Of a DNA stretch of 21,814 bases, positions 463 to 21,519 are shown one piece after another (position 1 is the first letter of the stretch; each line of letters opens with the position of its first letter). This stretch comes from a virus: positions 1-21,814 of IMG/VR virus record IMGVR_UViG_3300031566_000420; one strand, 5' to 3'. The notes under the pieces are model-generated. The model worked only from the letters and a program-made list of their open reading frames with translations, was not told the origin of the DNA and made no database searches. Both the position numbers and the translations under genes were made by a program.

Positions 463-2304
463 ATGGCCGTTTATGTTTCTCCAGGTGTTTACGTTCGAGA
501 GGTAGACCTTTCGTTGTACATTCCTGCTCTGTCCACTACTATTGTGGGTATGGTTGGAACGTCTAACAAAGGACCGACTCAAACACGTACCTATATTACC
601 AACCAGCAACAGTTTATCGACGTGTTCGGTGAGCCGGATTCCAGCATTGGTTTCGAGAGCTATGCCGCACTCCAGTATCTCCGCCGTGGTCGTCAGCTTT
701 GGTTCGTGCGGGTAGTCGGCCCCAGTGCCGCTGCTGCCGACGAGAGCTTTACCTATGAAGATGTCCAAGCCCAAGAAATTGCGAATACGGACCCCGATGG
801 CATTCTGTTGACTTTTGCTGACATTGATGCTGGTGGTGCCGTTCTTGGTTCCCTTCCTGTACTCCCAGGTTCGGTAACGTTTACGGTCACAATCGGTGCT
901 GCGGACTACGAAATCCCGGATGATGGAGACGGTGCTCTTTTCCTGACTGATGTCGCTCTAACCGGCGATGTTACCGGAACTATCGACTATGTAACCGGGG
1001 CGTGGACCCTGGTCTTTGTAGCCGGTGATGAGCCTGACGACACTACTGACATCTTGGTTGACTACAGCAACGCTACCGCAGCGTTTGTAGCCGAAGCCCT
1101 GAGTGAGGGTGAGTGGGGTAACAACATCTCGATTCACATCGAGCCGGGTACCCAAGGAACCTCTTCACGCATCGTGGTTTACTACGAAGGTAACGTGGTT
1201 GAGCGTTGGGATAGCGTAAACCTGGATGACACCAGCGACCGCTATGTCGAAACTGTGATCAATGGGGTTTCGGACTTCATCACGGTTACTGTGGACGCTC
1301 TGATCCCCACAGCATCACTTTTGCTGCCGATTGACTTCTACACCCCGGTATTGCTGACTGGTGGCGACACAGATGCCGCAAACATCCTTGCCGCAGACAT
1401 CATTGGTCAGGCATGGGATGTTGGTTTGGCACAGCCTACGGGTATGCAACTCTTTGCTTCCCCGGCTGCGGTGGACCTTAATCTGATAGTTGCTCCTGGC
1501 TGGTTTGACATTGCTGTGGTAAACGCAATGATTCAACTTTGCGAAGCCCGCTATGACTGCATGGCAGTAATTGATCCGCCGAATGATCTGACCCCGCAAG
1601 AGGTTGTAGACTGGCATAACGGACAGGGAATTTGGGACGGACAACACGCTGCCCTAAATAGTTCATATGCTGCTCTGTACTACCCCTGGGTTAAGATCTA
1701 CGATAACTACAACGGGCAGTACGTGCTAACCCCACCGTCCGGTCATATCCTGGCTGTCTATGCCTTCACTGACCAGACGACTGAGAGTTGGTTCGCTCCT
1801 GCTGGTCTGAACCGGGGTCGTGTGATCTCGGGTATCGACGTGGCTTATGGCCCGACTCCTGGGGAGATGGATCTTCTCTATGGTGATGGCAATGCGGTTA
1901 ACCCCATTGCTAGCTTTACCAAGGACGGCATCGTGGTTTGGGGTCAACGTACCCTGCAACGTAAACCTTCGGCTCTGGATCGGGTTAACGTTCGCCGCCT
2001 GATGCTGTATCTCCGGAAGGTGATTTCAACCTCGGTACGCTACCTCGTCTTCGAGCCTAACGATGAGAAGACTTGGAAGCTCTTTGGTCACCTCGTGATC
2101 CCGTACCTGAATGAGGTTCGTCAGCGTCGTGGTCTGTACGACTTCCGCGTGAAGTGCGATGAGACAACCAATACTCCTGAGGTTATTGATCGGAATGAGA
2201 TGAAGGCCCAGATCTTCTTGAAACCGGTTAAGGCCGCTGAGTTCATCCAGGTTGACTTGGTTATCACTTCAACTGGTGCGAACTTCGACGAAGTACTCTA
2301 CTAA
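463..2304 (+). CDS. Contractile tail sheath protein with an inserted extra domain
   Basis: This is a 613-residue tail sheath subunit, which polymerises around the tail tube and contracts to drive it into the host. The N-terminus (MAVYVSPGVYVREVD, then IVGMVGTSNKGP and a VFGEP segment near residue 55) is the classical sheath start. The C-terminal domain (about residues 495-613: RRLMLYLRKVI, TWKLFGHLVIPYL, LKPVKAAEFIQVDLVI) is the conserved sheath core that forms inter-subunit strands. Between them, residues of about 104-203 form an extra beta-rich domain also found in the gpI homologue at 19093. AGGAGG at 449-454 lies 8 bases before the ATG. All arginine codons I read are CGN, none AGA/AGG, which fits selection for high expression; the tape measure does use AGA. 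The gene is first in a sheath-unknown-tube set ending at the terminator near 3740. Identity is very secure. Confidence 0.97.
   Translation: MAVYVSPGVYVREVDLSLYIPALSTTIVGMVGTSNKGPTQTRTYITNQQQFIDVFGEPDSSIGFESYAALQYLRRGRQLWFVRVVGPSAAAADESFTYEDVQAQEIANTDPDGILLTFADIDAGGAVLGSLPVLPGSVTFTVTIGAADYEIPDDGDGALFLTDVALTGDVTGTIDYVTGAWTLVFVAGDEPDDTTDILVDYSNATAAFVAEALSEGEWGNNISIHIEPGTQGTSSRIVVYYEGNVVERWDSVNLDDTSDRYVETVINGVSDFITVTVDALIPTASLLLPIDFYTPVLLTGGDTDAANILAADIIGQAWDVGLAQPTGMQLFASPAAVDLNLIVAPGWFDIAVVNAMIQLCEARYDCMAVIDPPNDLTPQEVVDWHNGQGIWDGQHAALNSSYAALYYPWVKIYDNYNGQYVLTPPSGHILAVYAFTDQTTESWFAPAGLNRGRVISGIDVAYGPTPGEMDLLYGDGNAVNPIASFTKDGIVVWGQRTLQRKPSALDRVNVRRLMLYLRKVISTSVRYLVFEPNDEKTWKLFGHLVIPYLNEVRQRRGLYDFRVKCDETTNTPEVIDRNEMKAQIFLKPVKAAEFIQVDLVITSTGANFDEVLY
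772..1071 (+). repeat. Shared beta-rich domain, copy in the sheath
   Basis: Sheath residues of about 104-203 match three segments of the gpI-like protein. The common frame is PDGI, then a PGSV turn, then a DDG turn, then TGTIDY-x-TG-x-WTL-x-F, then a DY end. In this copy I see PDGILLTF, VLPGSVTFTV, IPDDGDGALF, TGTIDYVTGAWTLVF and ILVDYSN. The similarity is at protein level; the DNA copies have diverged. Confidence 0.82.
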
Positions 2305-2316
2305 AGGTAGGCTAAG

Positions 2317-3087
2317 GTGGGCAAGCACGTAAAGCACTGGCGCGAGTTATCTAGGAAGAGTCGTAGACCCTTCCCAGTTAATACCCGTGAAGTCGAACCT
2401 GCTGTTCGGGAAGTAACGCAAAAAGCTTACCGGGCACATATGTTGGCTAAGAAGCGGGATAAACTCAAAGAGGCGCTGGTTGAAATGCGGCTTCACCCCA
2501 AAGACTTTGCTCATGTTGCTGCTGGTGGGAGTATCTCCCACCTCCAGCGACTGGGTTCTTATGGTCGAAACATCGTCCGAACCACCAAACGTGATTTCAG
2601 AGGAATCCATAAGCAACAAGGGGTTCGTAAAGATACTGCCTTTGCTGCTGGAACGATTGCGGCTGGTGGTCAGAAATACCGTACTCCGCAGTTCCAAGGG
2701 GTTATGAAGAAGGATGCTGCACGGCACAAACAGGCCCGTGCAATGCAATATCGTTATGGTGGAGATCTCTCCACGAAAATTGGAGCCGGAGTTCTGGCGG
2801 CAGGGGTTGCTACTAGAGGATTTAAAGCGTACAAAAATTGGCGTCGAAAAGCTTCGGCTCGTCCGAAGTTCAGGGGGTATGACATCTACCCTGAGCATAG
2901 TTATTCTGCGGTGGGTATACAGCCCTACAATCAACCGTACTACCCCGATGAGGATACCCACCGGGCTGGTCCTCCTCGCCACGTCAGAGCGCATGTAGGT
3001 GGCTTAGACGTGTATGAAGAGTTTCAATTGGACGGGAATACCCGTCGAGACTTAATTGAGTGTATTACTCGAACTCCATTCGAGTAG
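2317..3087 (+). CDS. Very basic protein of unknown function between sheath and tube genes
   Basis: This encodes 256 residues from a GTG start, 12 bases after the sheath stop, with AAAGG at 2303-2307 as the likely ribosome binding site. I recognise no family. The protein is unusually rich in Arg, Lys and His through residues 1-185 (KHWRELSRKSRRPF at the start, YKNWRRKASARPKFRG near 170-186). Ala/Gly-rich stretches (AFAAGTIAAGG, GAGVLAAGVATRG) are too short and too charged around the edges to be convincing membrane spans. The last 65 residues turn Pro/Tyr-rich and then acidic. The position inside the highly expressed sheath-tube block suggests a virion or assembly protein, perhaps binding nucleic acid or the acidic inner surface of the tube. 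Other frames in this interval are open too (including a 215-codon minus-strand frame), but only this one has operon spacing and a plausible start. Confidence 0.8.
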   Translation: MGKHVKHWRELSRKSRRPFPVNTREVEPAVREVTQKAYRAHMLAKKRDKLKEALVEMRLHPKDFAHVAAGGSISHLQRLGSYGRNIVRTTKRDFRGIHKQQGVRKDTAFAAGTIAAGGQKYRTPQFQGVMKKDAARHKQARAMQYRYGGDLSTKIGAGVLAAGVATRGFKAYKNWRRKASARPKFRGYDIYPEHSYSAVGIQPYNQPYYPDEDTHRAGPPRHVRAHVGGLDVYEEFQLDGNTRRDLIECITRTPFE

Positions 3088-3124
3088 GACTTTATTCTAA
3101 GGACAGTGATAGGAGGATTTTGAC

Positions 3125-3673
3125 ATGCCGTATTGGGAACCAATCGGATCTGATCTTTTGGGAGCGAAGCACATTGCTAACCCCGGTGGTGGGTATGAGC
3201 CGCAAAGAGGGCACAACTTTGAGCTGCTTATCTCGGTTCCCGGTGGTGGAGGTGAAGGTGCCGAAATCCTTCTGAGATCAGTCGAGACATCGCTAGGAAT
3301 CAGTCATAACAGTGAACCGCTACCCTTGCCGTACATGAACGAAACGGTGTATATCGCCGGTCGTCCGTTGTATGCTCCGGGGCCTGTGGTTTACCGTGAT
3401 ATGGTCAACATGGGTACGTACTCCATTCTGGAAGGTTGGTATAACCTTGTGTACAACCCAATTACATCTGAAATCGGTTACGCTGCCGACTATAAGAGCA
3501 TGGCTACATTGACCATGTACGACGTTAAAGGGCAGTTTGAGCGGTCTTGGGACATCATCGGTATTTGGCCGCAAGACCTCTCGCAGGAAGCGCCATCTCA
3601 CGTTAATGGTGACATTATGCGTATTAACGTAACATTCCAATTTGATAAAGCAGTTGCACAATTTGCATACTAA
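3125..3673 (+). CDS. Tail tube protein, T4 gp19 type
   Basis: This 182-residue protein is the right size for the tail tube subunit, which forms the hexameric rings of the inner tube through which DNA passes. The beta-sandwich pattern is clear: HNFELLISVPGG near residue 30 (gp19 proteins open with a similar N-F-x-V-x-I strand), LRSVETSLGI near 50, PVVYRDMVNMGTYSILEGWYNLVYNP at about 86-112, then ATLTMYDVKGQFERSWDIIGIWPQDLS and INVTFQFDKAVAQ at the end. The stretch giving a small tweak in the molecule followed by W-x-x-x-G-x-WP is typical of gp19-type tubes. AGGAGG at 3111-3116 lies 8 bases before the ATG. This is the last gene before the terminator, consistent with sheath and tube being made in large amounts from one message. 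Confidence 0.92.
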   Translation: MPYWEPIGSDLLGAKHIANPGGGYEPQRGHNFELLISVPGGGGEGAEILLRSVETSLGISHNSEPLPLPYMNETVYIAGRPLYAPGPVVYRDMVNMGTYSILEGWYNLVYNPITSEIGYAADYKSMATLTMYDVKGQFERSWDIIGIWPQDLSQEAPSHVNGDIMRINVTFQFDKAVAQFAY

Positions 3674-3674
3674 T

Positions 3675-3700
3675 ATAATTTTCGATCTTTACGAAATTAT
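3675..3700 (+). other. A/T-rich imperfect hairpin just after the tube gene
   Basis: ATAATTTTCG (3675-3684) can pair with CGAAATTAT (3692-3700), leaving a single bulged T and a 7-base loop. It starts two bases after the tube stop codon and precedes the stronger terminator hairpin. It could protect the 3' end of the sheath-tube message or simply be a chance A/T palindrome. Confidence 0.45.
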
Positions 3701-3715
3701 CTCTATAAGAACTTT

Positions 3716-3759
3716 CAGCCTGCCTTACTTTTATTTCATAAGAGGCAGGCTGTATTTTT
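3716..3759 (+). terminator. Intrinsic (rho-independent) terminator after the tube gene
   Basis: CAGCCTGCCT (3716-3725) pairs perfectly over 10 bp with AGGCAGGCTG (3743-3752), followed by TATTTTTA (3753-3760). Three further inner pairs (3728-3730 with 3740-3742) shorten the loop. It lies in the 117-base gap between the tube gene and the next start, the longest gene-free stretch in the window, and separates the abundant sheath/tube block from the assembly and baseplate genes. Confidence 0.92.
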
Positions 3760-3790
3760 AAGGGAACCTACATTCAATTAGGAGGATGTA

Positions 3791-4663
3791 ATGAGCGAGT
3801 TTGATTTTCTAAAACCAATTCCGAAGACCACGATTTCCGTGAAGCTTCCCTCCCGAGGTATGCTCTATCGAGATGATACTCCTGCTGGGAAAGGCAAGGT
3901 AACTCTTGCTCCAATGACAATGGTAGAAGAGTCATATTTTTTGGACCCGGACCTTCCGTTCGAAAAAGCAATTGATAAAATCCTGAAACAGTGTATTCAG
4001 GAAAACCTAGATGTCAACACTCTTTTGTCCTCGGACAAATTCTTTCTCTTTATGATGCTCCGGGCGGTAACTTATGGCGCAGAATACCCTTTTACATGGG
4101 TATGCCCTGCGGACAAAGAGGGGGGTGGTACGTGTAGGAACAAAAATTCTGCGGTAGTACATATCCCAGATGATTTCAAGGTCAAATATCTTGCCGATGA
4201 CGACAAAGAACCTTTCAAAGTTATCCTTCCCGACTGTCAGAAAGAGATTTCTTTCCGATTGCTCCGTGGGTATGATGACGAACATATTGACCGCTTCCAG
4301 AAGGAAGGGAAAGCAAAACAACAAGAAAATATCCGGGTTATTGATAGGACTGCGATTTTTCGTTTATCCCGGCATATTACTCACGTGGATGGTAAAGCAG
4401 TTAAAGATGCCCCTCAAGACTTGTTGCTTACTTTCGTGTCGTCTTTCAGCGCAAAAGACCGCCAGTATCTGCAACAGAAGATTAATTTTTATACGCCGGG
4501 ACTAGACACAGCCGTGACCCTCACTTGTGAGAAATGCGGTACTGTGCATGAATGGGATATGCCTTTTACGGCGAACTTTTTTCGCGCAGTCATTGAACCT
4601 GACGAGGCAAACGCAGTGGCAGATGAAGTTCGATCTGATGTACCACATGGGACTGAGGCATAA
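3791..4663 (+). CDS. T4 gp26-type baseplate/tail assembly protein with zinc-ribbon cysteines
   Basis: This encodes 290 residues. The start (KLPSRGMLY, then VTLAPMTMVEE at about 37-47), the helical ILKQCIQENLDVNTLLSSDKF segment, and MMLRAVTYGAEYPFTWVCP at about 88-106 match the T4 baseplate gp26 family, whose members act in hub assembly. Cys105 and Cys115 plus Cys246 and Cys249 (CEKC) look like the two halves of a zinc ribbon, the second pair just before the conserved aromatic segment WDMPF. AGGAGG at 3780-3785 is ideally placed. Between tube and tape measure this is the slot usually taken by the tail-assembly chaperone. The last 40-50 codons overlap another frame (4623-4820) that looks like the natural C-terminus of the same family, so a frameshifted form of about 342 residues is likely. 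Confidence 0.8.
   Translation: MSEFDFLKPIPKTTISVKLPSRGMLYRDDTPAGKGKVTLAPMTMVEESYFLDPDLPFEKAIDKILKQCIQENLDVNTLLSSDKFFLFMMLRAVTYGAEYPFTWVCPADKEGGGTCRNKNSAVVHIPDDFKVKYLADDDKEPFKVILPDCQKEISFRLLRGYDDEHIDRFQKEGKAKQQENIRVIDRTAIFRLSRHITHVDGKAVKDAPQDLLLTFVSSFSAKDRQYLQQKINFYTPGLDTAVTLTCEKCGTVHEWDMPFTANFFRAVIEPDEANAVADEVRSDVPHGTEA
4577..4582 (+). promoter_or_regulatory. Candidate frameshift site (TTT TTT C)
   Basis: Six T residues form codons Phe263-Phe264 of the upstream protein, followed by C. A slip of +1 (UUU to UUC) or -2 on this run enters the frame of the 4623-4820 reading frame. That frame is open from 4518, after a TGA at 4515-4517, so the shift must occur between 4518 and 4663 and the T run lies inside this window. 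It is the only homopolymer run of this length that I see there. No experimental support is available from sequence alone. Confidence 0.4.
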
Positions 4664-4820
4664 CGAATTAATGTCGTTGGATTTAGCAGAGCTAAATTGG
4701 TATTACAAAAAACTGTCCGAACAAAAAGAAAATGAGAACGAAGTTGAAAAACTAAAGCTAGAGGCCATGTTAATGGCGATGGGCGTAGGGACAGCAAAGA
4801 GGACCACGCCGCTACCATAA
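4623..4820 (+). CDS. Overlapping small protein or frameshift extension before the tape measure
   Basis: From ATG 4623 this gives 65 residues starting MKFDLMYHMGLRHNELMSLD and continuing with a helix containing AELNWYYKKL, then a charged KENENEVEKLKLE segment and a basic end. The first 41 bases overlap the end of the gp26-type gene in another frame. No Shine-Dalgarno sequence precedes ATG 4623, and the later in-frame ATGs (4638, 4647, 4671) have none at good spacing. The sequence reads like the C-terminal helices of gp26/chaperone proteins (short helix, then E-L-x-W-Y-x-x-L). It is therefore either translated by coupling or fused to the upstream protein by +1/-2 frameshifting, as tail-assembly chaperone pairs are. 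The tape measure starts 9 bases downstream. Confidence 0.68.
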   Translation: MKFDLMYHMGLRHNELMSLDLAELNWYYKKLSEQKENENEVEKLKLEAMLMAMGVGTAKRTTPLP

Positions 4821-4829
4821 GGAATTACG

Positions 4830-10105: not shown

Positions 10106-11377
10106 ATGTCAATCAGACCTTTTGAGAAAAAAGCCCCACATAACTTAGGGATGGATTGGAAGCAGGGTACCGGTGTCCATGCTAGAGATCGTACTACTGT
10201 CCGTAGAGGAATTGTAGAATACAATCGTGATCCTGATCATCGTGGTCGAATTAAGGTTCGTGTGGCTGAAGATGGCCCCGAGTACAGTGCTCGTTTTCCC
10301 GAGCAACCACGGTCGCCAACTCTTTCTCTAGAGTGGTGTTCTCCTTTATTTGGGAGTTATGCAGGTATGGGTTTTGGGTCGTTCACGGTGCCCCCTGTGG
10401 GTGCTCGGGTATATGTGATGTATGAACGTTCCCATCCAGAACAGCCCGTCTACTTTGGTGGTTGGTATGCAAACAGTGTCCGTCGTAGGCGATATGGTGT
10501 TACAAAAACGACTCTAGAACCCCCGATGAAGCAATTCGAAGAGCAGGATGGGTTCAGTGAAGCAGGAACTCCTGGGGGGGACTATATGTATCCTCCACGT
10601 CCTACAAAGTACCAGGGGCACTGGGAAGAGGAACAAGGGCCAGAATTGCCCCTAGAACTCGCGGATATGGTAGACCATACTCCGGACACCCAAATGTTTT
10701 TCAAGACGCTCAAGGGGGCTTCTCTGCTCGTGAAAGAACGGGATGAAGTAGAAGAGATGGTTTTAACTGACCGTCTTGGGGCAGAACTTCGTTTCGAGTC
10801 CAATACCCCGCTTTTAGAGAATGGTGTTCTTCGCCGTGGTCGGGTTTCAGGCACGCAACACGAGCCTATGAGTTTGGATAACCTATCCCATTTTACTCAC
10901 AATGTTTCATTAGTGAATGCTGTTCGGTCTGGGTTGGAGATTAGTTCGGGAACTATTGGGGATGATAACTCAATTAAACTAGACATTCATCCTGAGCAAA
11001 CGCAAAAGAAGAACACAGAATTATTTGATACACGAGCTGCTATGGAACTAGATCCTGGAGAAGATAGAATTAAGCTCCTTTATCGTGAAGAAGGAGAAGA
11101 CTTAGGCTATATTCTTTTTGACCGGTTAGGTCGAAGATTAGATATCGTAGGGATGCAGTCTATGTCAATCACATCTACTGAAGAGATTGACATCCGTGCT
11201 CCTAAAATTAAATTAACAGGGGATATAGATATAGAGGGCGAAGTCAGCTATTTTGGTAATCAAAAGTCGGTGTTTATAGAGGCGGATATGGAACCGTGCG
11301 CTACTCCTTTTAGAAACTATATTCCGTGTTCTACGCGGTCTTCAATTTGGCGGGGTACGCGGGAGTATAAAAGATAA
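10106..11377 (+). CDS. Baseplate spike protein, gp5 / gpV type, without lysozyme domain
   Basis: This encodes 423 residues. Residues of about 31-126 form the OB-fold of the gp5/gpV/VgrG family: RRGIVEYNRDPDHRGRIKVRV, then FGSFTVPPVGARVYVMYERSHPEQPVYFGGWY, with the family's P-P-x-G-x-x-V-x-V and P-V-x-x-G signatures. The middle (about 195-345) is beta-rich. The C-terminus has a few octad-like strands (SMSITSTEEIDIRAPKIKLTGDIDIEG) of the type that build the triangular needle. No lysozyme domain is present, and there is no terminal H-x-H iron-binding motif. Instead the protein ends with an unusual segment carrying Cys398 and Cys408 and a basic tail. The tip may therefore be supplied by another protein. 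The stop overlaps the next start (TAATG at 11375-11379). Confidence 0.92.
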   Translation: MSIRPFEKKAPHNLGMDWKQGTGVHARDRTTVRRGIVEYNRDPDHRGRIKVRVAEDGPEYSARFPEQPRSPTLSLEWCSPLFGSYAGMGFGSFTVPPVGARVYVMYERSHPEQPVYFGGWYANSVRRRRYGVTKTTLEPPMKQFEEQDGFSEAGTPGGDYMYPPRPTKYQGHWEEEQGPELPLELADMVDHTPDTQMFFKTLKGASLLVKERDEVEEMVLTDRLGAELRFESNTPLLENGVLRRGRVSGTQHEPMSLDNLSHFTHNVSLVNAVRSGLEISSGTIGDDNSIKLDIHPEQTQKKNTELFDTRAAMELDPGEDRIKLLYREEGEDLGYILFDRLGRRLDIVGMQSMSITSTEEIDIRAPKIKLTGDIDIEGEVSYFGNQKSVFIEADMEPCATPFRNYIPCSTRSSIWRGTREYKR

Positions 11378-14300
11378 TGCCTAACACGTTTAAAGGAGAC
11401 ATCAAAACTCTGTATACGTTCTACAGGTTGTCTGATTATGAGATGACCAATATTGCGCTTACAGACAAGGTACTGGAAGCAGGTACTGGTCCTCTACACT
11501 TTGAAGGGCACATGACCTGGAGTTTTAATAAGTGTATCTTCCAGGATGTTTTTGTTTATGGTATCGCGGGGCCAAGATTAGATGGAGATAAACGGGGTGA
11601 AGAAGGCTTTGATCCGTACCCTCCTTATGGCAGTAATGGTATAGTTTTTGATGGGTGTACTTTTGATAAAGAGTTCGAAATTTGGGACAACTGTGTTGTT
11701 GTTTTTAAAAGCTGCGTATTTAACAACACAGAACCAGTAAAAATAGGCCAAAATACCAGGGTTGAATATATTGATTGCGAATTTCATGGCCCAGTAGAGT
11801 TCACATATTTTTGTGAAATTCGTATGCGAGACTGCAAATTTTCTGGTATGCCTTACGCGATTAAAGCTACAGCGGGATGTAAATTCTTTATCGACGAAAC
11901 TACCGCAGAAGGTATTGACGAGTATTTCATTTCTGTTGAAGATGATTGTCAGGTGGATGTTTCTTCAAAAGAAGCCACTAGTTACACAACTACTAGTGGT
12001 CCTGTTTTCAAAGGAACAGATCACTCATCTATCCGTCTGTACGGTCTTGGTACGGTAGAAAGCCAGATAGGGCCAGCACTTGAAGTATCCGATAGTTCCA
12101 AAATTGAAGTTAGAAAAACCACAGAGATTAAGTCTCCTCAAGGGGACGCCGTTTCTATTTCTGAGGAGAGTGAGGGGTACTTCAACTCCCTCCAATTAGT
12201 AGAGTCCACCCAGAGTAATGCTTTCCTTTTGGACAAAAGTGTGCTCAGAATCAAAGATGTGGCGCAGGTTTTGTCCACACAACAGTCGGCTATAAACGCT
12301 ACGGATTCCAAGATTTACGGTCTGACCGTGATTGAGTTTAGTAGCTCTGAGGGCGTAGCCATTAAAGGAGTGCGCTCTAGTTTCGATCTTGCGGAGGGGG
12401 AACAGATCTCCTCTACAGGAGAAGAGGCGGTTAACCTTACTGGGGAGAGTAAATCTGTTTTCCGAGACTTTACAAAGGTTGAGGGTAAGACAACCGGAGC
12501 CAGTATCAATGATTCGGCCCAAGCCTTTTTCCAACGAGTTCAAGATGCTGTTCGTGGTTTGGAAGAGGCTGGGTGCGAGGTTGATGGTGGAATTCTTCGT
12601 GTCGCAGACTGTAATCTCATTGAGGGACTAACCTCTGGTGTGATCGCATCAAACTCAGCCAGAGTTCAAACAAGAAGTGTCAAGAAAATCCTGGGCATCC
12701 AAGAGGTTGGCTTGCTTATGGAGGACAGTGCCTATGATATCCACACAGCAACAGAGGGGATCTTTGGTGTTGATGCTGCGGTATACCTAGGGAACTGTCA
12801 AGGAGTAATTACTGACGTAGAGGCTATTGTCGGTGAAGATCTCGCCGGGATTATCGTGAATGAGACTTCTGGTCCATCAGAATTTTCACGGATTAAATTG
12901 ATACAAGCCCCTTCCGATGTTGCTGCTTATTTCTCTGTTGGAGAGAATAGCCAAATTCAAGTGACTGAGGTAGATGAAATTACATCAGAGCAGGGAGATG
13001 CCGTTCGGGTATACGTTGGCGAGGGGAGTACGCTAGATTTCTATGATGTGACAAAGATCACGGCTGTAGAGCAAGCGGCTATCCGGGGTGATATCGCGGG
13101 TAGGTTCACGTTGGCTAAATCAGAAGCCATCACTAGTCAGACCAACCAGATTGTTGTTTTGACTGCTCAGGGGATCAATTCATACGTCCGTTTTGCTGAT
13201 GTTGACTCCATGACGACCGATGAAAGTGAAGAGTCTCCTGTCTTTGTTTCTGGGGCGAACACCATAGAGCTAGAGGGTATTGGAGAAATTACTGTAACCA
13301 AGACCGAAGCCAGCGTTGTGGAGCTTCAAGGTAGGGGCGTAGAGTACGGGTCTATTAAGGTTCTTGACTGTCCGAAGATCGAAGCAGATGAATGTAGCAA
13401 TGGTCTGTTCACCCATAATGCTTTGATAACGGACATTGTTGGTACGAATGAGGAGTGCGAAATCCTTTGCAATATTACGAAGTTTGCTGCCTTGTCTGTT
13501 AAAGACACTAACCTGTATCTAAGTAACTACAACAAAATCGAGGCTCAGAGTGAAGGACACGCTATTGATCTTGAGGTGATTAATGCTCGTGGTGTAGAAA
13601 TGAAAATCTACACAGTACGACAAATTATTGGGGGGAAAGATGGTATTCACTACGAGGGACGTGGAAGCCTCAAACTTGTGGACCTTCCTCAAATAGCTGG
13701 TAAGGCGGCTGAAGATCACAGCCTGTTTATCCTAGGAACCGATTTTGTTACTTTTGAAGCTCATAACAGCCATACTGTTTCCGGTCGAGGAAAGGTGAAT
13801 TTTGTTAATGGGCATGGTGCGTTCTATAAATGCTCTCTTAAGGGGGATGTTAATCAGGTTGGCGCACGTTTGGACTTTTTCAACACGCCCATTACCCTCG
13901 ATGCTGCTTTTGACACAGACGTAGCCTCGTCAACATATTTCTTTCACTCGGATGTAACAAACGGGAAAGTTACATCAGCCGGGGTTATTACTTCCGACTT
14001 GAGTAGCTTCCCGCAAGGAGATATCCAGGGTGCTGGAATATTCAACAAGAGTGTTTTCACTGATTATTGGCACCTAGACACCGGAGCCGCAGCTATTTTT
14101 AATGCCCATGAAACAGCACATATACTTCATGTACAGGGTGGTGTGGGTACCGCAGCCTTATTGAATGGATACAAAGGGACAGGTGCAGATGGTTTAGAAA
14201 TTTCAGATGGTGCCGGAGTTATTGCCAACAGTATTGAACTAGCAGATGGGAATATTACTATAAATAACAACTGCGGTTTTATCGGTAATAGAATCGTTGG

Positions 14301-15072
14301 TTTGGCTACCAAAATTCTTACCCAAGCTAATGCTGGATCAATTTTAAACCAAATCGAAGTAGAGGAGCTTGAATTAGACTCTTATGCTGCTTCGATAGCA
14401 AACTACTTGATATTGACCGGGCAAATTACTTTGGGTGGTGCTGATGGTCTACTGCTCAACCGGGCCGAGTGTACAGATATTGTTAGCCAGTATGGGGGCA
14501 ATGCTCTGTTGTTTAACTGGCTTTCTGCCGGGGATATATCTACCAGCACGGATGCGTCCCTAGTAGGTTCTGGTATAGCGGCTACGGGTCTCACATTAGG
14601 TACCGGATCAGGAGTCTCTATTGCTGGGGGTAGTATTGGGAGCGCCCCAGTAGTTCCTAACGCAGCTAGTTTCTTGTCTGCTGGGGCAGATTTAGGTGGT
14701 GATCCTACGGGGCAAGGAAATGCCTTAGTTTTAACGTCGGGGAACACTGTAAACCCAGCCAATGCCGGAATAGTTATCCGTGGATCGGGAACTTTGGCTG
14801 AAGTATACATAAAAACACCTAAAACTTCCATATTACTAGGAGATGGCGGTACAAATTCTGATCTTCTTATTCGGGCAACTTCTGGTTTAGCTAAGTTGCT
14901 TGCTAAAAATATTGAGCGAATAGCTTCTGCGGATATCTTTGATGAAGCTACAGGAGACATTATTAGAAATGCTACCGGAGATATCGTAGACATCGCTACT
15001 GATCTTGACCGCCAGGGTTCTGGAACGATTACAGATACGGCTACTGCGATTGTCCACGTTCCGCCAGTGTAA
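11377..15072 (+). CDS. Giant beta-solenoid (parallel beta-helix) baseplate protein
   Basis: This encodes 1231 residues made almost wholly of repeats. Residues 50-160 have a motif hydrophobic-F-x-x-C-x-F recurring every 19-21 residues. Residues 208-615 form about 17 rungs of 23-26 residues (G-x-A-V/I start, a D/E-x-S turn, then I-x-x-V-x-x-I), with less regular rungs to about 780. Residues 886-1086 form 11 rungs of 18-21 residues, nine with a fixed Asn. Residues 1186-1209 show 8-residue steps (ATGDIIRN, ATGDIVDI) like the gp5/VgrG needle. This predicts a very long parallel beta-helix. I see no pectate-lyase or other polysaccharide-cleaving active site and no typical tailspike head-binding domain. 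Placed between spike and gp25 and starting by TAATG overlap with the spike gene, it is probably a baseplate or spike-associated structural protein. A depolymerase tailspike remains possible. Confidence 0.85.
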   Translation: MPNTFKGDIKTLYTFYRLSDYEMTNIALTDKVLEAGTGPLHFEGHMTWSFNKCIFQDVFVYGIAGPRLDGDKRGEEGFDPYPPYGSNGIVFDGCTFDKEFEIWDNCVVVFKSCVFNNTEPVKIGQNTRVEYIDCEFHGPVEFTYFCEIRMRDCKFSGMPYAIKATAGCKFFIDETTAEGIDEYFISVEDDCQVDVSSKEATSYTTTSGPVFKGTDHSSIRLYGLGTVESQIGPALEVSDSSKIEVRKTTEIKSPQGDAVSISEESEGYFNSLQLVESTQSNAFLLDKSVLRIKDVAQVLSTQQSAINATDSKIYGLTVIEFSSSEGVAIKGVRSSFDLAEGEQISSTGEEAVNLTGESKSVFRDFTKVEGKTTGASINDSAQAFFQRVQDAVRGLEEAGCEVDGGILRVADCNLIEGLTSGVIASNSARVQTRSVKKILGIQEVGLLMEDSAYDIHTATEGIFGVDAAVYLGNCQGVITDVEAIVGEDLAGIIVNETSGPSEFSRIKLIQAPSDVAAYFSVGENSQIQVTEVDEITSEQGDAVRVYVGEGSTLDFYDVTKITAVEQAAIRGDIAGRFTLAKSEAITSQTNQIVVLTAQGINSYVRFADVDSMTTDESEESPVFVSGANTIELEGIGEITVTKTEASVVELQGRGVEYGSIKVLDCPKIEADECSNGLFTHNALITDIVGTNEECEILCNITKFAALSVKDTNLYLSNYNKIEAQSEGHAIDLEVINARGVEMKIYTVRQIIGGKDGIHYEGRGSLKLVDLPQIAGKAAEDHSLFILGTDFVTFEAHNSHTVSGRGKVNFVNGHGAFYKCSLKGDVNQVGARLDFFNTPITLDAAFDTDVASSTYFFHSDVTNGKVTSAGVITSDLSSFPQGDIQGAGIFNKSVFTDYWHLDTGAAAIFNAHETAHILHVQGGVGTAALLNGYKGTGADGLEISDGAGVIANSIELADGNITINNNCGFIGNRIVGLATKILTQANAGSILNQIEVEELELDSYAASIANYLILTGQITLGGADGLLLNRAECTDIVSQYGGNALLFNWLSAGDISTSTDASLVGSGIAATGLTLGTGSGVSIAGGSIGSAPVVPNAASFLSAGADLGGDPTGQGNALVLTSGNTVNPANAGIVIRGSGTLAEVYIKTPKTSILLGDGGTNSDLLIRATSGLAKLLAKNIERIASADIFDEATGDIIRNATGDIVDIATDLDRQGSGTITDTATAIVHVPPV
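11533..11835 (+). repeat. Cys-ladder repeats in the solenoid N-terminus
   Basis: Residues 53, 94, 113, 134 and 153 are cysteines in the same motif context (CIF, CTF, CVF, CEF, CKF). The spacings are 41 (twice about 20), 19, 21 and 19. This is the signature of a residue stacked in successive turns of a beta-helix. Confidence 0.8.
11998..13221 (+). repeat. Array of about 17 protein repeats of 23-26 residues
   Basis: Successive repeats begin at residues 208, 232, 256, 280, 303, 326, 349, 373, 397, 420, 443, 466, 489, 514, 540, 566 and 590. Typical units are GPALEVSDSSKIEVRKTT and GDAVSISEESEGYFNSLQ. The DNA has diverged, so the array is old or maintained by structure rather than a recent tandem duplication. 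Confidence 0.8.
14032..14634 (+). repeat. Second repeat array with an asparagine ladder
   Basis: Asn residues at 890, 909, 930, 951, 971, 991, 1009, 1028 and 1047 each follow two or three small/hydrophobic residues (IFN, IFN, LLN, IAN, IGN, ILN, IAN, LLN, LFN). Spacings are 18-21. Two further rungs have Ser1065 and Gly1084 at the equivalent place. Stacked asparagines of this kind are known from parallel beta-helices. Confidence 0.82.
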
Positions 15073-15083
15073 GGAGGTAGCGC

Positions 15084-15755
15084 ATGTATGACTACAGGCT
15101 ACAGATGCCGAACATAAACGTAGGTTTTTATGAGCCTCGTTATGCACGGGCACACCAGTTAGACAAGGTGGACAATATCGCGGTTGATACTTCTGCCTTG
15201 TCTCGTACAGAAGGAGTCTACATCCCGTTGGGGTTTCCGAGTCAAACTCTAAGCGCGATATGGTTATCCGCCGTTATAAACAGTCGGCGGAGTAATAAGC
15301 CTAACACTGAGTTCCTTATGGAAACTGAAACAGATTTCATGGCGGGAGAAAAGTCACCAACGGATTTGCTTTCCGCTGTAGCGTTACTTAACCGAAAAAG
15401 TAAGGCTCATGGCTGGTCTTACACGCTTTCATGTATTGGCTCCTGGGAGAATCTCCTCCTTTGTCTCATGGAGGGGAACACGGTGATGGTAGGTGGGTCC
15501 GTGTACGAGAGTTTTCAGCAAGCGGAGATCAGCGGTATCGTGCCCATGCCTAAGCCCGGAGAGGCTTTATTGGGTGGTCAGATTGTTAACATCGTGTCTT
15601 TTGACCAGAAGGCCGAGACGGGGCAGGTGTTTGGCAATATGGGGACCAAGACTGGACGCAGAGGAATATTTACCTATCGGGGGTCATATTTCCGGAACCT
15701 ACAGATTTGCCGAGACTTTTTTGTGTTGATACCGAGGTTTGAACATGCCAATTAG
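15084..15755 (+). CDS. Papain-like (peptidase C1 family) pseudoenzyme in the baseplate cluster
   Basis: This encodes 223 residues from ATG 15084 behind AAGGAGGT. Residues 110-217 read like the second half of bacterial C1-family cysteine peptidases: a W-E-N-L-L-L-C-L-M-E-G helix, GGSVYESFQQAEISGIVPMP, LLGGQIVNIVSFD, VFGNMGTKTGRRGIFTY and RDFFVLIP. Family members have VYESF, G-x-V-P-M-P, GGHAV-x-x-V-G-Y-D, R-N-S-W-G and D-F-W-x-I at these places. The catalytic His of GGHAV is replaced by Gln166, and NSWG is reduced to Asn185-Met-Gly. In the N-terminal helix where Q-x5-C should occur (about residues 53-62) there is no cysteine at all. The fold is therefore probably kept and the activity lost, with a structural or binding role in the baseplate. 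The gene overlaps gp25 by 11 bases. The family call rests on visual motif matching. Confidence 0.72.
   Translation: MYDYRLQMPNINVGFYEPRYARAHQLDKVDNIAVDTSALSRTEGVYIPLGFPSQTLSAIWLSAVINSRRSNKPNTEFLMETETDFMAGEKSPTDLLSAVALLNRKSKAHGWSYTLSCIGSWENLLLCLMEGNTVMVGGSVYESFQQAEISGIVPMPKPGEALLGGQIVNIVSFDQKAETGQVFGNMGTKTGRRGIFTYRGSYFRNLQICRDFFVLIPRFEHAN
15734..15737 (+). promoter_or_regulatory. Ribosome binding site that decides the gp25 start
   Basis: GAGG lies 7 bases before ATG 15745. The upstream in-frame TTG at 15739 is only one base from it and cannot use it, so ATG 15745 is preferred. Confidence 0.7.
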
Positions 15756-16272
15756 TGAAGAAGACAAACGACAATTAGCTATAGAACAAACAGTTTATAC
15801 TAATCTCACTGAAATCATTGGGAATGGTATCAACTTTCCTATGGAGTTTACTACTAGTAAGAAAATTGGGGCAATTAAAGAGTCAAATGCGGGCGAACGC
15901 ATTTCAGACTCTATTCACCTTATTTTAGCTACGCGAATTGGCGAACGACCGTTCAATCCTGAGTTTGGAAGTAGGCTCCCTGAGCTTGTATTTGAACCTT
16001 TAGACGGTGCCTTGAAAGAATTGTTAAGGCACTACACTGTGGATGCCCTTGCTCGTTGGGAAAAACGTATAAAAATCGAACAGGTTGTTTTGACGGAGAA
16101 CTATGAATCCAACCCCAATGCAGTTGGGATTTCGATCTATTACGCTATTCGGAATTCACATATTAAGGGTAGCTATGTGTACCCCTTTGTTCTTGGTGGG
16201 ATGGCTACCACGGCCCAATACACAGGATCAGAGTCCAACAAGATGTTGGCCCAGCGAAATGTGAGGTCATAA
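15745..16272 (+). CDS. Baseplate wedge protein gp25 / gpW family
   Basis: This encodes 175 residues (MPISEEDKRQLA start). The core matches the GPW/gp25 family: ISDSIHLILATRIGERPFNPEFGSRLPELVFEPLD at about residues 55-89, with the family's L-x-T-x-x-G-E-R and E-F-G-S, then a helix LLRHYTVDALARWEKRI and the strand pair IEQVVLTENY and AVGISIYYAIR. gp25 is the core wedge protein that contacts the first sheath ring and the gp6/gpJ dimer and links baseplate change to sheath contraction. About 45 residues precede the core and 25 follow it, so this copy is somewhat longer than the compact family members. It overlaps the previous gene by 11 bases and is followed 3 bases later by gpJ. Confidence 0.95.
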   Translation: MPISEEDKRQLAIEQTVYTNLTEIIGNGINFPMEFTTSKKIGAIKESNAGERISDSIHLILATRIGERPFNPEFGSRLPELVFEPLDGALKELLRHYTVDALARWEKRIKIEQVVLTENYESNPNAVGISIYYAIRNSHIKGSYVYPFVLGGMATTAQYTGSESNKMLAQRNVRS

Positions 16273-16275
16273 GTT

Positions 16276-17829
16276 ATGGCTGTTGTTAAGTATAAGACCG
16301 ATTATTTCCTCAAAGATTACGCGACTATCCGAGAGGAAATGATTGAACGTTTGCCTATTATTTCTGAGGGCAAACTGACAGATTTAAACGAGTCTTCTAT
16401 TTCTGTCACTCTCGTTGAGGTATTTGCGGCTATCGCTGATATGCTGGGGTTCTATTTAGACTCAAACGCTTTAGAAGCTTTTTTACCAACAGTTAGGCAG
16501 CCGGAAAACGTATATCGTTTGACTGAGTTAATTGGTTATAGAATTCGTGAAGTTACTTCGGCCAAAGCTAGAGTTCAGTTTACCTTGGCTGCACCGTTAA
16601 CTGAAGAGGTTTTTATCCCCGTTGGGACAGAGCTTGGAACAGTTGTAAGTGGTGGAATCGGCCAAGATACCATGTTCCGGACTATAGAGAAAACAACTAT
16701 CCCAATTGGAGAAACTGTTAGTGAAACCGTAAATACTGTTCAAGGAGTCCCATATTCTGAGACATTTGTTGGGGATGGGAACGCAGGACAATATTCGGAG
16801 CTATCTCAAATTTCAGTGGATATAAGTACGATTAGAATTATGTCGGGGGATGTCCTTTGGACACAACAAGATAGCTTTCTTTACAGTGAAAGTGAAGACA
16901 GAGACTTTGTAGTCAAGGTAGACTATCTAGGGGTTGTTCGGGTCTATTATGGTGATGGAAAATACGGAAAAGTTCCTGGTGTTGGTGAAATGCTCACCGT
17001 TAGCTATCTTCGTTCGTCAGGAGAAGCAGGCAATGTAGGAGTGAATTCTATTCGGGTTATTGCATCTAATATTAAAACTATAGATACCAACACGGTTATT
17101 TCTAATATTACTGTAACCAACCCAGACTCTGCTGCGGGTGGGAGTGGCAAGCAGTCTCTAGAACACGTAAAAGTGAATGCCCCAGGGTCTCTGTCTGCTT
17201 TGTACCGCCCGTTGACGAAATATGACTATAACGCTCTGCTCGCTCGGTTAGGTGGGATTGCTCATGTAAACGTGTGGGGTGAGCAAGAAGAGGACCCCCC
17301 ATCATATGAAAACATGAACTGGGCCAACGTAGTCTTAGTCCCCACAGGTGGAGGGTTACCTTCTCAAAACTTGATGGATCAAGTTAAAGACTATCTCCTA
17401 CAATATCAACCAATTACAGTACGAGTACGGTTTATTGACCCCGAGTATATCTATATCAATGTTCCTTTGGACATCTATGTTCTTCCTGGGTACTCACAGA
17501 ATGACTTGCGTATCTGGGTAACGGATGAAATTCGAACATTTTTCAAACTAGAAAATGTTAGGTTTGGACAAGATCTTCGTGCCTCGACTTTCTACAGAAT
17601 TGCTATGACACCAGATAAAGTGGCCTACGCCTTTGTTGGGGATCTTGGTACTTATGATAGTGACACGGGTATTGTAACCCCCGTTGGTCAAGAAATTATT
17701 TTACAGAAGTGGCAGATCCCTGTGCTACACAAGGTAATCGTCACTCCGCATGAAGCCACTGAGCTTCCAATTCCAGACCTTTATCCCGATGAAGACGTGG
17801 ATAACGTGATCTGGGACATTGATGGCTAA
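16276..17829 (+). CDS. Baseplate J-like wedge protein (gpJ / gp6 family)
   Basis: This encodes 517 residues. The N-terminal helices (YATIREEMIERLPIISEG, then SSISVTLVEVFAAIADMLGFYLDSNALEAFLPTV at about 40-74) are the standard gpJ start. IPVGTELGT near residue 115 and VRVYYGDGKYGKVPGVGEMLTVSYLRSSGEAGNVG near 218-252 are the diagnostic Baseplate_J motifs (G-D-G-x-x-G-x-x-P, then G-x-x-G-N-V). The C-terminal half contains the two-layer domains (SALYRPLTKYDYNALLARLGGIAHVNVWGEQE) also seen in the family. In the baseplate, dimers of this protein ring the hub together with gp25 and gpI. GAGG at 16263-16266 within the gp25 end serves as ribosome binding site. Confidence 0.96.
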   Translation: MAVVKYKTDYFLKDYATIREEMIERLPIISEGKLTDLNESSISVTLVEVFAAIADMLGFYLDSNALEAFLPTVRQPENVYRLTELIGYRIREVTSAKARVQFTLAAPLTEEVFIPVGTELGTVVSGGIGQDTMFRTIEKTTIPIGETVSETVNTVQGVPYSETFVGDGNAGQYSELSQISVDISTIRIMSGDVLWTQQDSFLYSESEDRDFVVKVDYLGVVRVYYGDGKYGKVPGVGEMLTVSYLRSSGEAGNVGVNSIRVIASNIKTIDTNTVISNITVTNPDSAAGGSGKQSLEHVKVNAPGSLSALYRPLTKYDYNALLARLGGIAHVNVWGEQEEDPPSYENMNWANVVLVPTGGGLPSQNLMDQVKDYLLQYQPITVRVRFIDPEYIYINVPLDIYVLPGYSQNDLRIWVTDEIRTFFKLENVRFGQDLRASTFYRIAMTPDKVAYAFVGDLGTYDSDTGIVTPVGQEIILQKWQIPVLHKVIVTPHEATELPIPDLYPDEDVDNVIWDIDG

Positions 17830-17839
17830 GGAGTAAGTA

Positions 17840-19093
17840 ATGTCGTTTCCGATTATTAGTACAACGAGTGTTTGGGAAAACTGGGATGGCTTTGGAATTG
17901 GTGCTTGGAACATGTGGTTCATGGCCCCCTATGGATCATGGTGCTATTCCGCCTTTGTAAAAGATGGGATTACTTACTTCAAGAAGATCAACATTGGAAC
18001 CAGTGATCCTAACTATGAAATCTCCGACTGGGATTTTGGCGTAACACCAGACCCCCCCTCTTCTGTTTTTGCTTATGAGCAACAGGATGGTTACCCTAAC
18101 GGGTCTATGGGGTTGGGTTGTATTCGTGGCGCTACTCCAAAGTTGTATCTAGCTGGGAGATCTTCGGGTGTTCCTACCATTAATGACACAATCATCCACA
18201 AGTTTGTTGTAGCAGATGGTTTTGATGCTGAGAATTTGGCGAACGGACTTATCCCCATGCTAGGCGGGACTGTGCTGGATATTAATCTTCTGTGTGGCCT
18301 AGAGGTTGTACAGGGGGATGCGCTGTACCTCGTCACAAACAATAACAGTGGTGCCCTGTTCACACTTATGCGGTATGACTATGCTTATTTCGATGGAGGT
18401 GCCCATAATCCTACACATTTTGTGAATATGACCCCACAATTCCTAGAAGATAATGCTGCTGCACGTATTCGGGCAATTGGAATTGCTCGGGATGGGCATA
18501 TCCTAGTCTTTGCTAATACAGGACTTACTTCAACAGAGACTCGCGTGTTCAAATTTGACAAGGACAACTTGGATTATCTTGGACAAACGACCTGGACCCC
18601 CAATATTTCAACGGGGACTTGGGCGTACATGGTTCAACATTCAGACGTATTTATCCACTTCCAAGGGTTAAACAAAACTAGCTTATATGATTGGAAGACT
18701 GCTATCTATTATGACCGGGCTACTGGTATCCCGAATGAGGATAAGAGTAACTTTATCATCGAGGATAACTTGACCACTTTTGGTTCGGAGACTCCCATTG
18801 AACTCAAGTACGAGGCGCGGGACGCTTTTAATAACTTAGTCCCTGGGGCGAATACTAAATTTGTAATTGATGGTGAAGACCCCGATGCTCCGGATACATG
18901 GACAGACCGTGTTGGGGGCATTCAGGATAACCCGCTGAATGACTTTTTTGATGGGGATGGGGTGCCAGAGGCAATCCAAGTTATTGTTCCTACAGATGTT
19001 AATGGCGTAGCTTTGGCATATTACAAACCTATGCGTTCTGGTTCTGGTACTGAGCGAGACGCTATCAACGTATTCTGCCCAACGGATAACTAA
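17840..19093 (+). CDS. Probable baseplate/receptor-contact protein: propeller-like region plus Ig-like domain
   Basis: This encodes 417 residues with no family I can name. Residues of about 40-300 show five or six blade-like units, each with a hydrophobic strand, a polar turn and a second strand (KLYLAGRSSG, then HKFVVADGFDAENL; ALYLVTNNNSG, then LMRYDYAYFDGG; HILVFANTGL, then RVFKFDKDNLDYLG; VFIHFQGLNK, then AIYYDRATG). This suggests a beta-propeller. Residues of about 318-412 look like a bacterial Ig-like domain (IELKYEARDAFNNLVPGANTKFVI, later PTDVNGVALAYYKP) with an acidic insertion. The N-terminus carries a Trp-rich segment (VWENWDGFGIGAWNMW), echoed at the C-terminus of the next gene product. 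Lying between gpJ and gpI, it is likely a virion surface protein. Host binding is inferred from fold type only. Its stop overlaps the next start (TAATG at 19091-19095). Confidence 0.65.
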   Translation: MSFPIISTTSVWENWDGFGIGAWNMWFMAPYGSWCYSAFVKDGITYFKKINIGTSDPNYEISDWDFGVTPDPPSSVFAYEQQDGYPNGSMGLGCIRGATPKLYLAGRSSGVPTINDTIIHKFVVADGFDAENLANGLIPMLGGTVLDINLLCGLEVVQGDALYLVTNNNSGALFTLMRYDYAYFDGGAHNPTHFVNMTPQFLEDNAAARIRAIGIARDGHILVFANTGLTSTETRVFKFDKDNLDYLGQTTWTPNISTGTWAYMVQHSDVFIHFQGLNKTSLYDWKTAIYYDRATGIPNEDKSNFIIEDNLTTFGSETPIELKYEARDAFNNLVPGANTKFVIDGEDPDAPDTWTDRVGGIQDNPLNDFFDGDGVPEAIQVIVPTDVNGVALAYYKPMRSGSGTERDAINVFCPTDN

Positions 19094-21519
19094 TGTCTTG
19101 GTGGGAACCTGTACCAGTTGCGCCTCCGGTGACAGCTTACGGCGTGGTGTATGCCACGGGTGAGGTAGCTGAAGATCAAAACAGCATAAATCTATACCCA
19201 CCAATGTTCCTCCAGGCTTCCGTATCGGTTATCTCCCCTTATGAGGTTGCCACCGCTCAGGGAGAGATCTGGATCGAGTTAATTACCCAGACATATTTCA
19301 GAGACCATTTGAAACAGTACATCCCCTCAGAATACTGGCGTATGGATGCTAGACCCACATCGGAGGGAGGTGGTGGCGGAGCACTGAACGAGTTCACTCA
19401 GGTGTTTGCTATCACTTTGGATGAGATCAAGCAGGCCGTAGATGACTTTACAAAGATTTTCGACATCGAAAATTGCCCGCCGAAGTACCTGCCGATTATT
19501 GCAGATATGATTAACTTCCCCTTGGAGGCCACAGATACGACCGCTGAGCAGCGCAGGCAGCTTAGAACAGCCGTAGAGTGGTACAAATCTAAGGGCAGCC
19601 GTAGGGCCTTCAGAGCCATCCTGTATGCCTTTGGCTTCTACACGGAGATTGTCCCTCTTTGGACAGAGCATACGGATGAGTCTACCATCCTTGATGAGGA
19701 TGGAAATCCCCAGACCAACCTTTATGAGCGATTCTACGAAACGATTCCTGGTGTGGCTACAGGAAATGACCCCCCGAATGACTTTCCGCTGTTGGTGGAG
19801 AACGGGGGGACATGGTTCCGCAGCCCGCACTATGGGATTAAGTTGCTGGGGATCATTGGAGATCGACACGTGTCTATCAACTGGGGGACTATGACCCCTG
19901 GGGAATTGAACGTGTTCGATGAAACGATATCTAGCGAACCTAACGGTGTTATCACGGATTTCACAGGTACTCTGGATTATATCCCGGTCATCCCCGGATC
20001 AGTTTCGATGGACACCTATGTCGTAGGTCTCCCAGAGGTTATTACCGATGATGGACTTGGTGTCCTTTCTGGGGATGATGTGTTTGGTGACCCCATTACG
20101 GGGACCATTGACTACGACACGGGGGAGTGGACACTATCGTTTACTACTGCACCTACTACAAGTACGATTATCTGTGACTATACCTACGATTTCTATGAGC
20201 TTGTGGATCAGATAGGGTTACACCGAGCCTTCTATGACAGGGTGGATCAGCTATCTACGGCGGGAGCCTTGCTCCAGTATTACTTCCCAATTGAAGCTTT
20301 TAACTATCTGTTCCGTAGGATTGAGTTCTTACGCCCGGTGTTTGTTGTTCTCGAATGGCTATCCCTAGCGATAGAGATGCAGGAGAGTTATGACGTTCCT
20401 GAGGGAGAGAACCCTGTTATCATCGTCAATCCTGTCCGCAAAGATAAGGGTTGGTATTTAGGCTACTGTGACCTAGACGATATTACCTACACTCGGCTGG
20501 ACGAGAAGCTCTTAGGCTCAAGCATGTTGACCTTACCTTCCCCTCTAGACCCGCTTGTAGGACCAGGAGTTCATCCTGTTGTTGGTGAATTGGTGGGGAC
20601 GTATAACCCAGTGAACGAGACGGTATCTACAGAACCTGATGGTATTATCTTAAGTTTCTCTGGGCAATTAGATTACCCTGTATTTGCTGGTTCGGTAGAG
20701 ATGACCGCCACAGTAGGTGTACCTGAAACTATTACGGATGACGGGGCGGGGAATCTAACTGGCGCAGGAATAACCGGGACAATTGTGTACAACACAGGCG
20801 AGTGGACACTCGATTTTGTTACGGCTCCCACAGGGACGATTGATGCTGAGTATAGACGGACAGTTATGAGTGGGGCCTTAGGTAATTACTGGATCTTTCC
20901 GGATACCGTATCCCTGGAGTTCACTGTTTCAGCCGCTCCCTATACTATTGAGGATGATACTGAGGGTGTTCTTAATCGGAACAGCCAGGAAGTTACAGGG
21001 CTGATAAATTATGTGAATGGAGACTGGGTAGTCACTTTCGACGGTGCTTTTGTCCCAGATGATGGTTCAAGTGTCTGGGCAGCATACTCATATGCGACGG
21101 AGATACCCCCTACGGATCGTTCTGGGGCACTCCCACGTGGTTCTACTGAACTACCTTTCCCGCACTTGCGCGACCCGCAGGAGGGCTATTGCCACCCACC
21201 TGAGGACTTACTTGTAACGGTTGGCGCAATCTTGCCTGACCCTTATCGCTTGGCCTTGACTCGGGACGGGATGAATCTTTACCCACCCGCAGGACCAGTA
21301 CCATACATTGATCACGCAGACTTCCCCTCTCGTGGATTCACGGACATGTTAGGCGACCCACGACACGCGAATACCTTTACCCGAGAGTTTGGGTATTCTG
21401 ATCGTCCCCTATCTTTATTGAGAGTGGAGGTTAATCCCGTTCCTTCAGCAGAAAACTGGGAGAACCAGGAGACTGAGTGGGAGAACTGGGTCGGGCCTTG
21501 GGAAAATATAGGAGACTAG
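19093..21519 (+). CDS. Enlarged gpI-family tail protein with three copies of the sheath-shared domain
   Basis: This encodes 808 residues, against about 180 for P2 gpI. Residues of about 62-195 are the gpI domain: WIELITQTYFRDHLKQYIP, then FDIENCPPKYLPIIADMINFPLE, RRQLRTAVEWYKSKGSRRAFRAILYAFGF and TEIVPLW, with the family's cP-x-x-x-L-P-x-x-A and K-G-S/T-R-R-A-F patterns. gpI-type proteins sit at the wedge periphery and usually carry fibre attachment. Beta-rich repeats follow at about residues 276-366, 507-588 and 592-669, homologous to the insert in the sheath. The last 21 residues are Trp-rich (ENWENQETEWENW, then GPWEN). The start overlaps the previous stop by one base (TAATG) with no clear Shine-Dalgarno sequence, which implies translational coupling. 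The extra domains may form a baseplate collar or a fibre socket. Confidence 0.9.
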   Translation: MSWWEPVPVAPPVTAYGVVYATGEVAEDQNSINLYPPMFLQASVSVISPYEVATAQGEIWIELITQTYFRDHLKQYIPSEYWRMDARPTSEGGGGGALNEFTQVFAITLDEIKQAVDDFTKIFDIENCPPKYLPIIADMINFPLEATDTTAEQRRQLRTAVEWYKSKGSRRAFRAILYAFGFYTEIVPLWTEHTDESTILDEDGNPQTNLYERFYETIPGVATGNDPPNDFPLLVENGGTWFRSPHYGIKLLGIIGDRHVSINWGTMTPGELNVFDETISSEPNGVITDFTGTLDYIPVIPGSVSMDTYVVGLPEVITDDGLGVLSGDDVFGDPITGTIDYDTGEWTLSFTTAPTTSTIICDYTYDFYELVDQIGLHRAFYDRVDQLSTAGALLQYYFPIEAFNYLFRRIEFLRPVFVVLEWLSLAIEMQESYDVPEGENPVIIVNPVRKDKGWYLGYCDLDDITYTRLDEKLLGSSMLTLPSPLDPLVGPGVHPVVGELVGTYNPVNETVSTEPDGIILSFSGQLDYPVFAGSVEMTATVGVPETITDDGAGNLTGAGITGTIVYNTGEWTLDFVTAPTGTIDAEYRRTVMSGALGNYWIFPDTVSLEFTVSAAPYTIEDDTEGVLNRNSQEVTGLINYVNGDWVVTFDGAFVPDDGSSVWAAYSYATEIPPTDRSGALPRGSTELPFPHLRDPQEGYCHPPEDLLVTVGAILPDPYRLALTRDGMNLYPPAGPVPYIDHADFPSRGFTDMLGDPRHANTFTREFGYSDRPLSLLRVEVNPVPSAENWENQETEWENWVGPWENIGD
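19918..20190 (+). repeat. Shared beta-rich domain, copy 1 in the gpI-like protein
   Basis: Residues of about 276-366: EPNGVITDF, VIPGSVSMDT, VITDDGLGVLSG, ITGTIDYDTGEWTLSFTTAP and IICDYTY. This is the closest match to the sheath insert at 772-1071 in order and spacing of motifs. Confidence 0.85.
20611..20856 (+). repeat. Shared beta-rich domain, copy 2 in the gpI-like protein
   Basis: Residues of about 507-588: NETVSTEPDGIILSFSGQL, FAGSVEMTATVG, TITDDGAGNLTG, ITGTIVYNTGEWTLDFVTAP and IDAEY. It matches copy 1 nearly motif for motif. Confidence 0.85.
20866..21099 (+). repeat. Shared beta-rich domain, copy 3 (diverged) in the gpI-like protein
   Basis: Residues of about 592-669: FPDTVSLEFTV, YTIEDDTEGVLN, VTGLINYVNGDWVVTF and WAAYSYAT. 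It keeps the DD turn and the TG-x-I-x-Y-x-x-G-x-W core but lacks the leading PDGI strand. It follows copy 2 almost directly. Confidence 0.7.

Follow-up and report, generated by a model that had tools for sequence, protein, structure and literature searches.

The four beta-rich segments found in the tail sheath protein and the gpI-like baseplate protein of this contractile-tailed phage all derive, in our judgement, most likely from a single mobile beta-sandwich domain, which serves as a general virion surface module of a phage group. The copies in the sheath, the gpI-like protein and the major capsid protein are homologous, and all three proteins carry the module within one virus group. Its copy number varies, from one to four in gpI-like proteins and from one to two in sheaths, and it evolves far faster than its host proteins. 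Taken together, it is probably a promiscuous, exposed and fast-evolving Ig-like virion domain with an adhesive or cementing function.

The window, by which we mean the whole 21.8-kb virus record that was analysed, contains a tail operon with genes for sheath, tube, tape measure, hub, spike, W/gp25-like, J/gp6-like and gpI-like proteins (Table 1). Operon genes outside the library scans were named by gene order, as in SP-15. Two other proteins of this region stand out: a 1,231-residue protein inside the baseplate operon (11377-15072), with a weak right-handed beta-helix match and no PHROG of known function, and a 417-residue protein whose gene separates the J-like from the gpI-like gene (17840-19093), for which Pfam gave no match and the PHROGs no clear one.

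Table 1. Module copies, their host genes and one context gene in the window.
Feature	Position (nt)	HMM core (nt)	Strand	Evidence
Tail sheath protein, 613 aa	463..2304		+	phrog_23 tail sheath 2e-103; Pfam Phage_sheath_1, _1C; PDB T4-type sheaths 1e-52 to 1e-58
Module copy in sheath, residues 104-206	772..1080	844-1068	+	BLASTP to gpI 7e-10; HMM 2.7e-24
Baseplate J/gp6-like protein, module not found, context gene	16276..17829		+	Pfam Baseplate_J 3e-12; phrog_219 3e-54
gpI-like baseplate protein, 808 aa	19093..21519		+	Pfam Tail_P2_I 1.2e-9, residues 101-192
gpI module copy 1	19918..20190	19960-20187	+	HMM 2.2e-24; AlphaFold2 model
gpI module copy 2	20611..20856	20656-20853	+	HMM 5e-19
gpI module copy 3, directly behind copy 2	20866..21099	20869-21093	+	HMM 1e-22

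An earlier note on this DNA had proposed that the sheath and gpI share one homologous beta-rich domain, and all the comparisons agree with it. Translation confirmed that the four segments are in frame, and BLASTP of the sheath against gpI returned three separate matches, one per gpI copy (E 7e-10, 2e-9 and 2e-9). Every pair of segments scored beyond 2,000 shuffles, with fitted p of 8e-6 or lower. The profile-profile comparison suggested in the note was run with hhalign on independently aligned copy groups, and gave probabilities of 99.7% for sheath-gpI, 99.1% for sheath-capsid and 98.9% for gpI-capsid, against less than 2% for all reversed-column decoys. The module is about 80-90 residues long, with one copy in the sheath and three in the gpI-like protein. 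Copies 1 and 2 of gpI are 65% identical over aligned columns, and no repeat remains among the copies at the DNA level. The ordered motif set that had been read in all four copies holds for the sheath copy and nearly so for gpI copy 1, where PNGV replaces PDGI; copies 2 and 3 deviate from it. Copy 2 has AGSV in place of PGSV and ends in EY, and copy 3, the most deviant, shows DDTEG and TGLINYVNGDW and has no PDGI, no PGSV and no terminal DY.

Sheath and gpI are both genuine carriers, but the list of two was incomplete, since the capsid protein, encoded upstream of the window, almost surely carries the module as well. The capsid copies were first detected with an HMM built from only the four window segments and run over ORFs from related contigs. 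It matched the gp23-type major capsid proteins of Bacillus phage SP-15 (4e-11), Listeria phage LIS04 (2e-11) and GXN1 (7e-9), while the best reversed ORF reached E 1.3 and the best shuffled ORF 0.63. The corresponding capsid ORFs of IMG/VR relatives gave weaker initial matches, which became firm after one round. In SP-15, LIS04 and GXN1 the carrier is annotated as the major capsid protein, and the carrier proteins of LIS04 and of two relatives, L005 and L013, belong to Pfam Gp23 at about 1e-70. In related contigs, the module-bearing capsid ORF precedes the sheath gene by about 5.6 kb. One of these relatives, L005, overlaps bases 1-2932 of the window at 99.0% identity and encodes a module-bearing capsid protein, and the capsid gene of the window phage, which lies outside its contig, therefore almost surely carries the module too.

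The search for the module in other tail proteins, also proposed in the note, found no further carrier among the ORFs of the window, but did reveal additional virion proteins in the relatives. On a single 176-kb contig (G013), the carriers are the capsid protein, the sheath, gpI (three copies), a 1,716-residue protein and a 221-residue protein. Scans of whole records identified the capsid protein, the sheath, gpI, a protein of about 1,700 residues (with NHL repeats in L022), a collar-like protein of 779 residues and 220-residue proteins. The module has thus spread between unrelated virion proteins, as had been claimed, and it is not a feature of sheath and baseplate only, given its presence in the major capsid protein, the NHL-repeat protein and the free-standing 220-residue proteins. 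In other phage groups, the carriers include a 1,215-residue sheath, capsid proteins and SU10-adaptor-like proteins; in Acidovorax phage ACP17 the profile matches gp6 at 2e-7 and the sheath weakly at 3.7e-4. Copy gain or loss is clean at one sheath slot, which holds two tandem copies in L014 and is empty in SP-15 and LIS04.

An AlphaFold2 model of gpI copy 1 (38 rows) has a mean pLDDT of 90.1 and seven strands. A full-length model of the sheath (12 rows) had a pLDDT of 40 and was set aside. Among 350,542 chains searched with Foldseek, the best solved match of the copy 1 model is the major capsid protein gp23 of phage P1, with a probability of 1.00 and an E of only 0.013. Residues 210-300 of P1 gp23 align to the model with Z 7.9 (2.6 Å, 81 of 92 residues), ahead of the next row at Z 6.5; as this Z is just below 8, the structural match alone is no proof. 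The sequence profile, run against the whole P1 genome, also gave a single match, in gene 23 at residues ~242-297 (E 7.9e-6), which is weak at 22.5 bits and weak as well with a smaller profile (13.5 bits). Structure search and sequence profile thus converge on one stretch of P1 gp23. From its position and from a text that gives no residue limits (PMC12810830), we take this stretch to be the I-domain, which is beta-rich and protrudes outward from the capsid. Among predicted viral structures, the best matches were two capsid proteins, one sheath and the ACP17 gp6 wedge. Ig variable domains reached Z 5-6 against the model, a common level, with Foldseek E of 0.06 and up, and an assignment of the module as Ig-like is tentative. 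We take the further structural rows, for superoxide dismutase, TCR and VHH, to reflect the general resemblance among beta-sandwiches.

When 41 copies were compared with Pfam-A, no Pfam family matched the module, no Ig-type family (Big_2, I-set and similar) appeared at E <1, and no lectin or carbohydrate-binding family matched, a result with which glycan binding is still compatible. A domain without a Pfam model is missed in annotation. No sequence match to the module was found in the PDB, and tblastn of single copies and of the consensus against 50,697 phage records returned nothing, because single module sequences are too divergent. Searches with gpI as a whole found no relatives among phages or, by peptide pattern, in IMG/VR. 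One protein family, phrog_6128 (1,200 aa), matches 30 of the 41 module copies; it holds several module-like stretches and is annotated only as of unknown function.

That virion proteins of phages exchange Ig-like domains is already known, and the promiscuity of these domains was reportedly described by Fraser et al. in 2006. Like those domains, the module would be a small beta-sandwich that phages exchange and attach to proteins of the capsid, tail and baseplate. Unlike them, it has no Ig-type Pfam match, it is inserted inside capsid and sheath proteins, and several proteins of one particle share a single module family. By alignment, the module occupies the same slots as domain I of T4 gp18, the limits of which we take to be residues 98-188, and the insertion domain of T4 gp23. 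In the window sheath, the insert spans residues ~98-206, between the N-terminal region of the gp18-type domain III (25-84) and domain II (206-254). The module profile had no match at E 1 in the T4 genome, and E 0.59 at best against gp18 alone. Like the P1 gp23 I-domain (PDB 9ukm), the module of the SP-15-like relatives is inserted in an HK97-fold capsid protein. This insertion applies to the gp23 copies of the relatives; the copies in the sheath and in gpI, though homologous, belong to different proteins. In P1, by contrast, only the capsid protein matched. In the excerpts of Evseev et al. (2022, PMC9230969) that we refer to here, Ig-like domains of phage virion proteins are discussed, and the extra domains of tail sheath proteins are described as Ig-like and, in published structures, face outward rather than towards the tube. 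The module is like the type 2/3 extra domains in splitting the conserved sheath core, one part of which lies on either side of it, and the same excerpts connect such domains neither with baseplate repeats nor with the I-domain of a capsid protein (PMC9230969).

With both the protruding I-domain of P1 and the orientation of the extra sheath domains in those excerpts pointing the same way, we infer that the copies face outward. Exposure of the module, as the earlier note had proposed for a surface domain, is therefore likely; for the sheath copy it would follow from the slot position and the published sheath structures. The module is inserted at the I-domain position of the gp23-type major capsid protein, lies in the outer sheath slot that corresponds to T4 gp18 domain I, and is repeated within the gpI-like protein. 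New copies would arise when the domain is exchanged inside one gene or from gene to gene. Its exposed face may make weak, changeable contacts, most likely with polymers of the host surface or the environment, and a stabilising role between neighbouring subunits is also possible. Glycan binding and particle contact, which had been suggested earlier, are candidate roles.

The rate of change of the module bears on these roles. Among ten relatives, the capsid protein is 92% identical in its core and 46% in the module, and the sheath is 76% identical outside the module and 42% within it. For the closest usable pair, L010 and L015, dN in the capsid protein is 0.053 for the core and 0.40 for the module (dS 0.59 and 1.2, respectively), and in the sheath 0.077 and 0.20. 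The conserved module columns are the turns (DDGxG, GTIxYxTG), and strands and loops both vary. Such fast evolution fits an exposed, adhesive role without proving it, and the combination of high dN with raised dS may instead reflect recombination or relaxed constraint, rather than selection for binding.

The main rival explanation is that the module is a cementing domain, joining capsomere to capsomere and sheath ring to sheath ring in place of separate decoration proteins. It has precedents: in P1, the I-domain touches the P-domain belonging to the adjacent capsomere, a contact to which the authors ascribe stability (PMC12810830), and subunit cementing is the role that the excerpts of Evseev et al. 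(PMC9230969) propose for extra sheath domains. A cementing interface would nevertheless be expected to be conserved, yet no part of the otherwise 92%-identical capsid proteins varies more than the module. Moreover, the copies in gpI and in the 1,700-residue protein sit outside any lattice, and the sheaths of SP-15 and LIS04 do without the module. We therefore consider cementing as the principal function possible, though rather doubtful; the sequence variability of the module is easier to reconcile with a binding face that can change than with an interface in a lattice.

A tree of the copies, based on 76 columns, places the group of the window sheath copy with the group of gpI copy 3 (support 93/91). 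Taken by itself, this would be in keeping with a narrower form of one idea of the earlier note, contact of the sheath with the baseplate arms, in which each specifically recognises the copy of the other. Apart from the small number of columns on which the tree rests, this proposal is at odds with the single gpI copy in L071 and L072, the two sheath copies in L014, and SP-15 and LIS04, which have the module in the capsid and not in the sheath. A dedicated sheath-baseplate contact is very unlikely, because it leaves the capsid and 220-residue copies unaccounted for. In the same tree, the sheath copies are scattered over four groups, and repeated exchange of copies between genes is suggested; it is only suggested because a single origin of the sheath copies (p-AU 0.11) and of the gpI copies (p-AU 0.19) was not rejected. 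Shuffling at the protein level has been documented for receptor-binding and baseplate proteins (PMC10684548).

That separate beta-rich sequences have converged on shared turn motifs is barely credible: the turns do dominate the conserved columns and the broad profile gave E 0.002 to one shuffled ORF, but this reading is already contradicted by the full-length alignments, the hhalign probabilities of about 99% against below 2% for reversed decoys, the pairwise shuffles and the confident model.

Returning to a mobile surface domain as the preferred explanation, it is tempting to speculate, with all due reserve, that all outer layers of the particle, from the head through sheath and baseplate to additional virion proteins, might display a single hypervariable domain that is passed between their genes by exchange within the genome and forms a changeable, particle-wide adhesion coat. 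Among the open-licence papers searched, we found no link between the capsid I-domain, the sheath insert and the gpI repeats, and the module family and its use from head to baseplate appear to be undescribed. Linking by sequence a capsid insertion domain, extra sheath domains and baseplate repeats offers an origin of these extra domains that can be tested. The much faster change of the module in near-identical capsid proteins marks it as the region of the head where constraint is weakest or most varied, and this question of constraint can be tested in the cultured phages SP-15, LIS04 and P1.

Several minor observations concern individual carriers. The free-standing proteins of about 220 residues in L074 (G013:82500-86500; 1488-2147) and L075 (G012:115500-119500; 1618-2283) have one module each and a common C-terminal part (WxYPAGDxRATF), are encoded far from the tail operon, and are possibly separate decoration proteins. 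Proteins of about 350 residues from other phages (L023 4549-5598, L025 4614-5654) also have one module each; that of L023 has a weak SU10-adaptor match, so the head-tail adaptor may be a further carrier. The 168-kb contig G012 has partial sheath genes at both ends (L016 9980-10783; L076 2-1675), which overlap by ~213 residues with only 78% identity and different modules, indicating either two sheath genes or an assembly join. A gpI relative (L069 4320-7148) has, at residues 583-663 between its module copies, a weak match to the concanavalin-A-like Laminin_G_3 (E 1.8e-4, below the curated cut-off). Finally, the ACP17 sheath (L068 1870-3831) has at residues 221-361 a stretch with matches to PHROGs for head closure, for the wedge and for further virion proteins, which looks like another shared domain in a sheath.
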